Shown here: positions 49,977 through 55,125 of the stretch, piece after piece
Position numbering within the stretch: position 1 is the stretch's first letter
Layout: each line of letters begins with the position of its first letter
Made by a program: the position numbers and the translations under genes
The notes under the pieces: generated by a model
The model's input: the letters and a program-made list of their open reading frames with translations, nothing else
Databases searched by the model: none
What the model was told of the DNA's origin: nothing
From: Bacteroidota bacterium
GTDB lineage: Bacteria > Bacteroidota > Bacteroidia > Bacteroidales > JAAYUG01
DNA length: 64,000 nt
Direction of reading: 5' to 3'
Assembly (NCBI GenBank): GCA_029571215.1
Contig: JAKPTE010000008.1
Location: 62,001-126,000, forward strand

Positions 49977-50999
49977 ATGAAAAAGTATTTCTTGCCTCTT
50001 TTACTGGGATTTACCTCGTGTTCGACAATGAATGTGACCCTTACTGTGCTCGAACCGGCTCAAATCAATGTACCACGCGAGATCCACTCTCTGGTCATCG
50101 TCAACCGCAGTCTTCCGGCCAAAGAAGAAAAGGTAAAAAATGTTCTGGAAGGAGTATTGACAGGAGAAGGACTTTTTGCCGACAGGGCCGGATCATTCGA
50201 ATGTGTGCGGGGAGTGGCTGACGGACTGGTCAGCTCGCCCAGATTCTCCATAATCGTTCCGCCCGAAAAAGAACTGAAAGGAACTGGTACACGGCAGTTT
50301 CCTGAACCACTTGACTGGAATACAGTGGAGAGAATCTGCCGTCAGAATCAGGCTGATGCCCTTCTGGCACTCGAAGTTTTCGATTCAAACAATCTGTATT
50401 CCGACCGGAAAGAACAACGTACCCGAAAGGAAAATGACAAAGAAATCAAATATGATGTGACTGTAACCCACGTACGGTCCAATATTGAATCGGGCTGGCG
50501 AATTTACGATCCTGCCGGTAAAAGGATTATCGACGAAAGCATTTTTACCGATTACCGGGAATGGGAAGCCGAGGGACGAACCCATAAAGAAGCCCTGGTA
50601 AACCTTCCTCCGCAGAACGAGATTGTAAAACAGACCGGGTATTTTGCCGGAACGCAGTACGCCCGAAGAATTTCTCCTTCCTGGATCCGCACCGGCAGGG
50701 AAATGTACAAAAAAGGAAACGATGATTTTAAGTATGCAAAACGACTTGCTCAGACCAATCGCTGGGTAGAAGCCGCTAATGAATGGCACAAATATACCGA
50801 AGACCCTGATCCCAAACTGGCAGGCCGTGCCTGCTACAACATGGCGTTGGCAGCTGAAATAGCAGGCAACCTGCAGGAAGCCGTTGAATGGGCTGAAGAA
50901 GCCTATGTGCGTTATAACAATAAAAAAGCCAGAGAATATAGCTACATCCTTAAAAATCGTCTTTTCCGCCAGCAAAAGCTCGAGGAACAGATGGGAGAA
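49977..50999 (+). CDS. DUF6340-family lipoprotein
   Basis: A 341-residue protein (the stop is at 51000-51002) with a lipoprotein-type signal (MKKYFLPLLLGFTSCSTM). I place it in DUF6340, a Bacteroidota family. Features are VNRSLPAKEEKVKNVLEGVL, the conserved segment NQADALLALEVFDSNN, and a C-terminal TPR-like part (WVEAANEWHKYTEDPDPKLA, ACYNMALAAEIAGNLQEAVE). It is probably an envelope protein of unknown role, possibly in metal or envelope-stress responses, but no function is established. It converges with the spermidine-synthase-like membrane gene. Confidence 0.8.
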
Positions 51000-51020
51000 T
51001 AGTCTGGCACGAGTTCCGGC

Positions 51021-53522
51021 TTACCGTGCTCTTAGCCTTTTCTTTCCTGAGAGTTCTGACCGGAGGAGACCTGCCAGCAGAATGCTCCCCAACACCAGAC
51101 CGGAAACCTGCAATCCATAGACCGGAAAAACGAAAATTGTAATCAAAATAAGAACAACTGCAGAACCCGTGAGATCAGCTGCATAAAGGGTTCCCGCTGC
51201 ATGGGCGGGTGTTTTTTCTGCTATTACGGCAAAAAGAAACCCGGGTATGGTGGCCGTTGCAAACAGGAATACCGACAAAATTATGTATCCCGGAATTTCA
51301 GCAATGTCGCTGTGCTGAAGAATCCCCAGAACAAATGGTATAATGGCACAGAGAAGAAGGAAAAATACGGTGACTGTAACAGTTGCCGTCCTGGTTTTTA
51401 AGAACGGAAAACGGTTTCCTGCCCAGGCTCCTGCAGCCATTCCTGCCATGTATACCCCGATCAACAGCCCGGTGGTCTGATAGGCAGAACCATATAATAT
51501 CTGGGCTCCGAGAATAAATAGAAACTCAAGTGCTGATCCGGCTCCTCCCGCTGCCAACATAAGTGAATTTCCTGCTTTATACAAAGCAAAAGCTATGATT
51601 CCGGCCACAAGAAAGAATAGTACAATGCTGTAATAGGGAAACCGATACTGGCTTAACCAGAAACGGATGTGCAGGAAAGTTCCAGCAGGCCGGAAAGCAA
51701 AATTTCCCGGAGCATCACTGACCAGGGTCTTCTCAACTTCGTGGATCCGCGATAAAAGTAATGTTGAATCTATATAGTATTGATTCACATAATTATTATT
51801 AATATTCAGTAATTCAATTCGTTCCGGAATATTGTAATTCAGAACGGAATCCCGGGCCATCAGGTAAAGTTTTTCGCCAGGAATGAGCAGTACGTGAGTA
51901 AAATATCTTTTCAGCGTATTTACCACGGAAGAATTGATCTCCCTGCTTTCAGGATTCAGATAATTGAACGAGGTAGGCATTGACCAGCAGGAAACTCCCC
52001 CAGGTACCAAATGGTTTTTCACCGTTCCTGTGAATTCGGCCGAAAACAGACGGTTCTCCTGCAAGGTGCCCATTCCGGGTGACTGGATAAGGATAGCATT
52101 ATATTTTGTACGGGTATTCCGCAGCATGTGAACCGGATCCACCGCATGAAAGCTGATACTAAAGGGCTGTTCTGATGGAAGGCTTTCACGTAAAACATTG
52201 ACCCAGAATGGATTGATATCCGTGTAGTCAATATGTCTGATCCGGTATTTTGCCAGCTCGGGTAGCATACCCTGCAGGTCGCCGGAAATCATCAGAACTG
52301 TGTCCCATCGGTTGACTTGCACCAGGGGATAATGAACAGCTTCTTCACAGTCAACGATGTTGTTTCCCGAGGCAAGCAGGCTTCCGTTGCTGAAGGTGTT
52401 TTTCTGTCCGGCCTGCTCTGTCAGAATAAACCGTCCGTAAGGGGTTTCTCGAAATAAAATAATTTTTTGTCCCGGATACTGCCATCGCGCCAACCTGGTT
52501 TCTGTCTTCATCCCAAATAATAACGCCAGCAGGGAAAAAAGCAGATACATAAACCACACAGCCCGGTACATCCTAATTTTTTCCGGTGGTGCGGTTTTCC
52601 TGCACAGCCATAGTACGAGGATTCCCGGTAAGAATAGAACTGACAAGGTATTCAGTACGTGACTTAATAGAAAAGCATACATTAGTCCGGCCGTCAAAGC
52701 TCCCATGGTTTCCCAGGCATAAACCTGCGATGCTTTGACGCGATTATTCTTAGATAAGTTATTGATTATCTGAGTAAAAGTTATTCCAGATAAAAAACAA
52801 AAGGGAAATAACAGGCCTGACATGAACAGAAGGGAACCAATAAGTCCGGGCATTGTGCCGGGAGGAAACATCAAAACTCTGAAATAATAACTCGCCGGAT
52901 AGAATATTGGCGGAAGAACGGAAAGCAGGGCAAAAGCAGCTGAAAGGGGAGCAGTTTGTGTCAGTCCGGAAAATTTCCTTCCTGCTGCTGCACCCAATCC
53001 TGTGATCAACATCCACACAAACAATACACAACCGATAATGAGCTCATTCCCGCTGAAAAGATTGAGAAACTGGCGGAGAAAAACCAGCTGAACCTGCAGT
53101 GTGAGGTACCCGAGCAGAAAGGAAAAAGCCTTGACCTCAGGATCCGAAAGTTCCTGACGAACAGTTTGTTTGTCCTTCTCCGGCATGGGAATCTTCCCGT
53201 TACTGTTTTTGGCGAAGATTTTCAGGTAATACTTTAGATGCCAGCTCAGGTGAAAAGCGGCTACCACTGCCATACCAATGCCGAAATGCACATGCCAGCG
53301 AAGGGCTGTTTTTATCCATGTCCATTCCAGACGGTAATTCAGATTGAGGACCAGCAAAATTCCGAGTATCCCAGTTACAAGAAACGTGAAAAGCAGGATG
53401 GTATTCCAAATTTTCCGGTGGACCGGCAGGGAGAGTACTTTCATCCTGACCAGCATCAGTGTCAGAAAATAACCGGTCAGGCACATCGCCGCGATAGGCA
53501 GAAGACTGTATGGATTCTTCAT
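51021..53522 (-). CDS. Membrane protein with degenerate spermidine-synthase-like domain
   Basis: An 833-residue polytopic membrane protein. Residues about 1-100 contain four helix-like segments with closely spaced His residues (His77, His79, His91, His95 in RWHVHFGIGMAVVAAFHLSW), a pattern that could bind haem. Residues about 130-350 and 640-830 are further membrane helices; between them lies a Rossmann-like domain resembling spermidine synthase. In that domain the glycine motif is SGDLQGMLPEL instead of GGGDG, the acidic residue is Asp in TDINPFWVNVLRES, and the catalytic DxxDP-type segment is QSPGMGTLQEN, so it probably lacks aminopropyltransferase activity. It follows the Memo-AMMECR1 gene on the same strand after 19 bases and is likely co-transcribed. 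Confidence 0.78.
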   Translation of the reverse strand: MKNPYSLLPIAAMCLTGYFLTLMLVRMKVLSLPVHRKIWNTILLFTFLVTGILGILLVLNLNYRLEWTWIKTALRWHVHFGIGMAVVAAFHLSWHLKYYLKIFAKNSNGKIPMPEKDKQTVRQELSDPEVKAFSFLLGYLTLQVQLVFLRQFLNLFSGNELIIGCVLFVWMLITGLGAAAGRKFSGLTQTAPLSAAFALLSVLPPIFYPASYYFRVLMFPPGTMPGLIGSLLFMSGLLFPFCFLSGITFTQIINNLSKNNRVKASQVYAWETMGALTAGLMYAFLLSHVLNTLSVLFLPGILVLWLCRKTAPPEKIRMYRAVWFMYLLFSLLALLFGMKTETRLARWQYPGQKIILFRETPYGRFILTEQAGQKNTFSNGSLLASGNNIVDCEEAVHYPLVQVNRWDTVLMISGDLQGMLPELAKYRIRHIDYTDINPFWVNVLRESLPSEQPFSISFHAVDPVHMLRNTRTKYNAILIQSPGMGTLQENRLFSAEFTGTVKNHLVPGGVSCWSMPTSFNYLNPESREINSSVVNTLKRYFTHVLLIPGEKLYLMARDSVLNYNIPERIELLNINNNYVNQYYIDSTLLLSRIHEVEKTLVSDAPGNFAFRPAGTFLHIRFWLSQYRFPYYSIVLFFLVAGIIAFALYKAGNSLMLAAGGAGSALEFLFILGAQILYGSAYQTTGLLIGVYMAGMAAGAWAGNRFPFLKTRTATVTVTVFFLLLCAIIPFVLGILQHSDIAEIPGYIILSVFLFATATIPGFLFAVIAEKTPAHAAGTLYAADLTGSAVVLILITIFVFPVYGLQVSGLVLGSILLAGLLRSELSGKKRLRAR

Positions 53523-53541
53523 CGGCCTCTCAGCGGTTTTT

Positions 53542-55125
53542 TCAATGAAAATCTTTTTCTTCTATAATAAGTGCCTGATAGGTGTAGAGTTCGGCATCCT
53601 TCCAGCCGTTCCAACCGATCCCTGCCTTATCGCGCGCACAATGCCCTAAAAATTCCTCCAGAGTCCAGTTGGTCTCCCTGGCAACCTGGGGGAGAAAAGT
53701 ACCGGATGCGGACCCTTTACGAATGTAAATACCATCAATCCCCAGCCGTATTTCTTCCGGAGAATGGATTCGTTGGAGGGGTGTCAGGACGGATATCTCT
53801 ATGTCTATCTCTTTTAGTTCATTTCTGTCAACCGGATCAAACCTGTAGTCATGCACGGCTGCTGCAATGGTCATTTCCTGAACTATCTTCCAGAGCGGTT
53901 CGGTAGGATCAAATCGTCCGATACATCCTCTCAATTCCCCTTTTTTTCGCAAGGTAACAAAAGCACCGCAGGGGGTTTCCAGGGCAGGGGTGAGGAGGTT
54001 CTGCTCAACCGGAGGTGTTTTACCGTTGCGTATATAATTCTCCAGGGTATTTCGTGCAATGGAAATAAGGGCTTTTTTTTCCTGCACAGAAAGGGAAAAT
54101 TCATCCCTTTTGCTTTCCCTGGTGGTCTGTTTTTCTTTGGAGGTCCCGGCTTTTGTGGTTACGGCGATGGCATAATAACCTACCACTCTATCCCTCTCAC
54201 CGTAAGGAGAGTCGCCGGAATTTCTGTACTGTATTTTGTGGTATTCAATGCCGGGTATGTCTTCGGTCATGTATAACAGGGTGAGAACCGAAGTCCATCC
54301 GCAGATGCAGGTTACCAGACCGGGTATTCCCTTTGCTTCCGTTTTTCGGATGGTATTCAGAAAATTCTCCGGCGAATTGGTACAAATGGCATCGGCGGTG
54401 AGGGCATCTGCTCTTACAGCATCTTCATATCCGGGATAATGAGAGAAATCGGTAGAAATAACAAACAAATTTTCCGGAACCATGTATGGTTTTAAAACCT
54501 GGGCAATTTTCTTGCATACCGATGCGCGCTGGGTTCCGATTACGATGGGAACAATGGTGAGCTTATTCCCGTATATTTCTTGCAGGAAAGGCAGCTGAAC
54601 TTCCAGGCTGTGTTCATCTATCTGAGCATCTGTTCTGTCGGTAAAAACTCCTGACGGGTCATTTATCAGTTTTCTGGCCAGTTCCAGGTCAACCGGAATT
54701 GTTCCCAGGGGCATTTCATAGTTCCCTCGGGTATAAACCGAAGCTCCGTCAAAACTGAACCTATGACTTGAACCGATGACAAAAACATTCCGGTATACTT
54801 TTCCGGGATCAAGCTGATGGAACGCTGATGCAGCAACACCTCCCGAAAATACGTAACCGGCGTGAGGAGAGATCACTGCCTGAATATTCCCTGATACTTT
54901 TCGTGGTTCCGCTGATGCAAAAAGGTCCGACAGGGTTGATGCAAGTTCCTTTGCAGAACCCGGATAAAAACTACCGGCAACGGCCGGCCTGCGGTTGACC
55001 AGGCTATCATTAGCCCGTTCATTTCCCGGTATGCTCATAGGCTGCTTGGGATTGGATGTGGAACAATAAAATACAAGGGGAACAAGCGAAAATACCAGCA
55101 ATCTCGAAACGTACCTGAGATTCAT
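53542..55125 (-). CDS. Memo-AMMECR1 fusion (AmmeMemoRadiSam proteins B and A), with N-terminal signal
   Basis: A 527-residue fusion. Residues about 45-325 are a Memo domain (RRPAVAGSFYPGSAKELAST). Its metal-binding residues are all present: His88 in SPHAGYVFSG, His121 in GSSHRFS, His229 in STDFSHYPG and Cys275 in CICGWTS. Residues about 345-527 are an AMMECR1 domain with GELRGCIGRFDPTEPLW and WNGWKDAELYTYQAL. Starting at ATG 55125 the chain begins with a hydrophobic segment (LLVFSLVPLVFYCSTS), so the protein appears exported or anchored; the lipobox is poor (Tyr at -1). The in-frame start at 55236 is unlikely. The radical-SAM partner of the AmmeMemoRadiSam set is not in this window. The gene leads a two-gene unit with the SpeE-like membrane gene. 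Confidence 0.85.
   Translation of the reverse strand: MNLRYVSRLLVFSLVPLVFYCSTSNPKQPMSIPGNERANDSLVNRRPAVAGSFYPGSAKELASTLSDLFASAEPRKVSGNIQAVISPHAGYVFSGGVAASAFHQLDPGKVYRNVFVIGSSHRFSFDGASVYTRGNYEMPLGTIPVDLELARKLINDPSGVFTDRTDAQIDEHSLEVQLPFLQEIYGNKLTIVPIVIGTQRASVCKKIAQVLKPYMVPENLFVISTDFSHYPGYEDAVRADALTADAICTNSPENFLNTIRKTEAKGIPGLVTCICGWTSVLTLLYMTEDIPGIEYHKIQYRNSGDSPYGERDRVVGYYAIAVTTKAGTSKEKQTTRESKRDEFSLSVQEKKALISIARNTLENYIRNGKTPPVEQNLLTPALETPCGAFVTLRKKGELRGCIGRFDPTEPLWKIVQEMTIAAAVHDYRFDPVDRNELKEIDIEISVLTPLQRIHSPEEIRLGIDGIYIRKGSASGTFLPQVARETNWTLEEFLGHCARDKAGIGWNGWKDAELYTYQALIIEEKDFH

Follow-up and report, generated by a model that had tools for sequence, protein, structure and literature searches.

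What kind of system does a Memo-AMMECR1 protein serve when it begins with an apparent export signal and is encoded next to a large membrane protein? Two adjacent minus-strand genes pose this question in a 64,000-nucleotide stretch from a Bacteroidota bacterium (assembly GCA_029571215.1, contig JAKPTE010000008.1, positions 62,001 to 126,000; hereafter the window). One, with an ATG start, encodes a 527-residue Memo-AMMECR1 fusion (P0001, predicted to be exported; 53542..55125; hereafter the fusion); its stop lies 19 bases from the start of the other, which encodes an 833-residue polytopic membrane protein with an aminopropyltransferase-like domain (51021..53522) and is given the working name MEMB. 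An initial annotation, which placed the pair correctly at 51021-55125 with this spacing, had proposed an envelope version of the AmmeMemoRadiSam system with the membrane protein as partner and no local radical-SAM (SAM, S-adenosylmethionine) enzyme. Our analysis retains the export of the fusion and the partnership with MEMB and departs from the radical-SAM-free part: the two genes probably encode two components of a three-part AmmeMemoRadiSam system that works outside the cytoplasm and whose radical-SAM enzyme, AmrS, is exported as well. This reading is carried by features evident in the sequences themselves, namely the domains, their recurrent linkage, signals of the twin-arginine translocation (Tat) type that are confined to MEMB-linked AmrS, and preserved radical-SAM cysteines.

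Both halves of the fusion are readily recognized. Pfam profiles match Memo (PF01875) at residues 47-319 (54169..54987, minus strand; E = 4e-53) and AMMECR1 (PF01871) at residues 355-519 (53569..54063, minus strand; E = 3e-52), and the curated models TIGR04336 (Memo, protein B) and TIGR04335 (AMMECR1, protein A) give 232.4 and 168.6 bits against cut-offs of 26 and 99, bearing out the single two-domain chain first described. Across 49 aligned sequences, H88, H121, H229, C275 and D226 of the Memo domain are invariant (49/49), and the AMMECR1 motif LRGCIG (residues 398-403), previously noted as kept, is invariant at L, R, G, C and the last G, with I varying as I/L/V. The initial annotation had counted H88, H121, H229 and C275 as metal residues. 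In human MEMO1 the iron or copper ligands are H49, H81 and C244, with H192 near and non-coordinating (PMC11081632). H88, H121 and H229 align with H49, H81 and H192, and the invariant C275 is taken as the equivalent of C244. All four residues are thus conserved, but the predicted metal site comprises H88, H121 and C275: H229 is probably not a ligand, because its MEMO1 counterpart does not coordinate.

The hydrophobic N-terminus of the fusion, MNLRYVSRLLVFSLVPLVFYC, provides a predicted export signal at residues 1-21 (55063..55125, minus strand), ending in LVFYC. At the same place in orthologues, before the first conserved Memo residues, there is either a lipoprotein-type signal (..GC, ..SC or ..NC, then a polar stretch) or a signal for the general secretory (Sec) pathway. 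An automatic rule detected a signal in 37/40 MEMB-linked fusions; of the other three, two are truncated entries and one has a borderline value but a clear signal by eye. All those with an intact N-terminus carry one. This retention agrees with the export first suggested for the fusion. In the window protein a Tyr precedes the Cys, which is atypical of a lipobox, so that lipoprotein processing is likely rather than certain.

The gene pair recurs well beyond the window. Bacteroidota, Ignavibacteria and Acidobacteriota all include genomes with MEMB beside an exported fusion, at approximately 22 loci in the first search and at many Acidobacteriota loci, a recurrence that supports the proposed partnership. 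A genome of the same genus (G001, 95% complete) contains the pair in an identical surrounding gene order, with 80% DNA identity to the window. Full-length MEMB occurred in 7/296 genomes of a phylum-wide draw, and MEMB matches in 65/247 genomes of the phylum of an Acidobacteriota member. Gene orders in relatives are fusion-MEMB-AmrS, fusion-AmrS-MEMB or divergent; the first of these, with a Tat-signalled AmrS (Tat-AmrS), is found in Prolixibacter denitrificans DSM 27267 (L028), a strain held in a culture collection. An apparent remnant is seen at L052 (genome G355), where the AMMECR1 half of a fusion is followed by a 111-residue MEMB fragment and the only AmrS of the genome is cytoplasmic. At 16 Acidobacteriota loci (L296, L298-L304, L306-L309, L311, L315, L324 and L330) a DUF362 protein, Tat-signalled in at least L299 and L302, adjoins or lies near Tat-AmrS and MEMB, and a DUF6599 protein is often near these loci. 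Nine Acidobacteriota MEMB loci had no AmrS within the stretch examined, and those genomes were not searched for AmrS.

The N-terminus of AmrS divides along the same line as the presence of MEMB. With mismatches of the automatic Tat rule corrected by hand, 63/63 non-redundant MEMB-linked AmrS with a readable N-terminus, and 0/93 other AmrS, begin with a Tat-type signal, an RR or KR pair followed by a hydrophobic run; three of these 63 are not next to MEMB but come from a genome that has it. The corrections concerned over-long open reading frames with a true start downstream (L080, L184, L049, L051), entries missed by one or other rule that carry the motif (L055, L304, L316, L014) and entries with MEMB elsewhere in the genome (L075, L077, L081); cases with the gene cut or not found were left out (G000, L024, G137, L297, L305, L321). 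The start motifs include SKREFLR, SRREFL, NRREFLR and MDRRDFLK, each followed by a short hydrophobic run, with canonical RR in the Acidobacteriota, and KR motifs showed no enrichment at other N-termini in the same loci. Tat-signal models of Pfam and NCBIfam were the best or most frequent matches of these N-termini, although only some members match. The radical-SAM motif CxxxCxxC is kept in 63/63 Tat-AmrS and a Y-x-Y-x-E-P type motif in 61/63. In the AmrS tree, the Tat and MEMB labels change together in 4/4 independent pairs on supported branches, and L020 (8687-9911) presents a natural joint loss: with synteny intact, MEMB is gone from between AmrS and the fusion, and AmrS lacks a Tat-type signal. 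TatC is present in 20/21 genomes, including that of the window, and Tat-dependent, TatC-requiring export of MEMB-linked AmrS is predicted. Ten Tat-AmrS (L171, L173, L312, L314, L316, L317, L319, L320, L323 and L325) carry an insert with the motif CxxCH that follows the signal and precedes the first Cys cluster; the motif was counted in this N-terminal insert only, as the C-terminal zinc-ribbon-like Cys cluster of AmrS also yields CxxCH. The insert is a possible c-type heme site and, since attachment of c-type heme takes place only outside the membrane, a hint of an outside location. Three tandem AmrS copies with Tat-type signals lie beside MEMB on contig C75 of genome G040 (L067, L069, L075).

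A system devoid of a radical-SAM enzyme does not withstand a search of the genomes. A single AmrS in the window genome exceeds the TIGR04337 cut-off (292 bits against 220); it lies on contig C27 and has no signal, and relatives add a second, Tat-signalled AmrS that accompanies MEMB. In G001 this Tat-AmrS (NRREFLR) occupies another locus, on contig C162, beside kdsA- and rarA-like genes. At the DNA level the 10.5-kb stretch around it matches nothing in the window genome, which also lacks an orthologue of the RarA encoded in that stretch; given that DNA at the window locus is about 80% identical to G001, the 76%-complete window assembly most likely omits this region. Several MEMB genomes hold a second, cytoplasmic AmrS, which in G079 and G299 stands beside separate AMMECR1 and Memo genes, so that the exported system there would be a parallel copy and not a replacement.

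The AlphaFold model of MEMB (predicted local distance difference test score 82.7; predicted template modelling score 0.80) comprises, in order, three N-terminal helices, seven helices (residues 127-348; 52479..53144), a soluble domain (residues 353-624; 51651..52466) and seven last helices (residues 630-832; 51027..51635), all on the minus strand. In 21 relatives, Lys and Arg average 19.1 in loops predicted to be inside against 4.0 outside, with inside exceeding outside in 21/21; the positive-inside rule and the modelled helices together place the soluble domain on the periplasmic side, a topology that, like export, is predicted. MEMB exceeds the cut-off for Spermine_synth (PF01564; 27.9 bits against 22.9), and its soluble domain matches the Thermus thermophilus aminopropyltransferase 1UIR both by profile (E = 3e-29) and by fold; the polyamine aminopropyltransferase equivalog PRK03612 gives 83 bits, far under its cut-off of 472. 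By the residue roles established for spermidine synthases, the first catalytic Asp (position 480) is Asn in 18/22 MEMB and Gln in the window, the Asp position of GGGDGG (417) is variable, and the nucleoside-site acids are retained in most relatives. The N-terminal extension (residues 1-104; 53211..53522, minus strand), limited to a subset of MEMB, has four conserved His (H35, H77, H91, H95) and a weak likeness to DUF4405 and cytochrome b, the best DUF4405 match reaching 15.6 bits against a gathering cut-off of 26.7, with sub-threshold matches recurring in several members.

These features can be assembled into a working scheme. The fusion would leave the cytoplasm by the Sec or lipoprotein route, and AmrS, whose gene adjoins MEMB in most relatives, lies elsewhere in this genus and is probably in the stretch missing from the window assembly, would fold in the cytoplasm before its export by the Tat pathway. 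The aminopropyltransferase-like domain of MEMB, on the same side as the fusion and AmrS in the predicted topology, has lost the catalytic Asp but retains the nucleoside-site acids in most relatives; it may bind SAM or its products, with MEMB moving the cofactor, handing it over or removing it. In the subset resembling the window protein, electrons may come through the His-rich N-terminal bundle. A radical reaction on an envelope substrate would then be initiated by AmrS and completed with the metal-binding Memo-AMMECR1 protein. From co-occurrence and fold, we infer that SAM chemistry is performed outside by AmrS, SAM is handled by MEMB and electrons arrive by way of heme modules; the part we would advance least firmly, as a hypothesis, is the role of MEMB in SAM handling or electron delivery. 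The scheme in full, with radical-SAM chemistry outside the cytoplasm by Tat-exported AmrS, periplasmic SAM from the 14-helix MEMB, electrons from heme modules, an exported fusion and an envelope substrate, is plausible but falls somewhat short of probable.

Several observations weigh against an exported, radical-SAM-containing system. No pool of SAM is known beyond the cytoplasm; among Bacteroidota, many of the signals have KR in place of RR; Tat-AmrS was not found in the 76%-complete genome of the window itself; the MEMB domain of the window genus has lost further consensus residues (N475, Q480, M484); and the CxxCH insert could bind zinc instead of heme. The 63/93 split is phylogenetically non-independent, reflecting about five changes in all, and the independent pairs are too few to reach significance (sign test, p = 0.125). 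In gut Bacteroidales the exported fusion goes with a cytoplasmic AmrS: at loci L026-L054 of gut Bacteroides and Prevotella a lipoprotein-type fusion directly precedes a cytoplasmic AmrS, with no MEMB in the genomes searched, so that parts of the system need not share one compartment. MEMB is kept only where AmrS is exported, which is consistent with its serving AmrS and not the fusion.

The KR signals and the gut Bacteroidales arrangement lend themselves to an explanation in which the Tat-like N-terminus of AmrS is a non-translocated membrane anchor, holding the enzyme at the cytoplasmic face with only the fusion outside. Radical-SAM enzymes require SAM and a low-potential reductant, both known from the cytoplasm, which such an anchor would accommodate. 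We nevertheless consider it unlikely, given the canonical RR of the Acidobacteriota members, the matches of some AmrS to Tat-signal models, the CxxCH insert in one subclade and the restriction of the signal to AmrS accompanied by MEMB, which has a soluble domain predicted to be outside. If AmrS is indeed outside, it might have become an iron-sulfur electron carrier that is no longer a radical-SAM enzyme, and the system would then be a redox or metal device of the envelope, near to what was initially proposed; the metal-binding Memo domain, the possible heme motif in one AmrS subclade and the His-rich bundle of some MEMB would suit such a device. The near-universal retention of both AmrS motifs, and of a nucleoside-binding fold in MEMB that a simple electron carrier would not need, makes this quite improbable.

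Alternatively, MEMB could itself be active as an aminopropyltransferase on an envelope target, with the fusion as accessory, as its spermidine-synthase fold and profile match and the nucleoside-site acids kept in most relatives might suggest. This is disfavoured, and in our estimate very improbable, in view of the replaced catalytic Asp, the varying GGGDGG position and the low equivalog score, and it leaves the linkage to Tat-AmrS unexplained. That an ordinary exported protein simply neighbours an unrelated membrane protein is scarcely credible: at least two genomes of Bacteroidota (L009, L013) have the pair separated, but where it is apart MEMB stays with Tat-AmrS, and the recurrent linkage already described led us to reject chance adjacency. 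An exported system that includes AmrS remains our preferred interpretation.

As to the surroundings of the pair, a scan of the region for promoters and terminators returned nothing beyond chance level. Convergent with MEMB, positions 49977-51002 encode a DUF6340 protein with a lipoprotein-like start and repeats resembling tetratricopeptide repeats; the order is identical in G001.

Conservation of Memo and AMMECR1 extends from archaea to humans; human AMMECR1 and MEMO1 are linked to disease, and the biochemical function of these proteins is unknown. The primary function of MEMO1 has been described as unknown (PMC11081632). A compartment-shifted version with a dedicated third membrane partner offers new handles on what these proteins do. 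Neither an exported radical-SAM enzyme nor MEMB is described in the published literature that we searched, and radical-SAM enzymes are not known to work outside the cytoplasm; were AmrS to act beyond the membrane, the view of this chemistry as confined to the reducing cytoplasm would be broken, with the implication that SAM and strong reducing power are exported too.

Set beside the AmmeMemoRadiSam system as defined by TIGR04335, TIGR04336 and TIGR04337, the proteins described here share Memo, AMMECR1 and AmrS above curated cut-offs, with the metal site, LRGCIG and CxxxCxxC kept. They differ in that Memo and AMMECR1 are fused and predicted to be exported, AmrS of relatives is Tat-signalled, a membrane protein is tightly tied to the set, and a cytoplasmic version persists beside the exported one in several genomes; a cytoplasmic location is usually assumed for these components, whereas signals are predicted here on the fusion and on the MEMB-linked AmrS of relatives. 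The fusion shares with human MEMO1 (PDB 7KQ8, iron bound) the Memo fold and the positions of H49, H81 and C244 (H88, H121 and C275), but is predicted to be exported, is joined to AMMECR1 and stands in a bacterial operon context. MEMB has the soluble-domain fold of spermidine synthases and polyamine aminopropyltransferases (PF01564, 1UIR) and, like the membrane-fused PRK03612, carries membrane helices; unlike them, its domain lies between two seven-helix bundles, is predicted to be outside, has lost the catalytic Asp and scores far below the equivalog cut-off. The His-rich three-helix N-terminus of a subset of MEMB, finally, weakly resembles DUF4405 and prokaryotic cytochrome b561-type heme domains, from which it differs in that its sequence matches are sub-threshold and its heme binding is putative.

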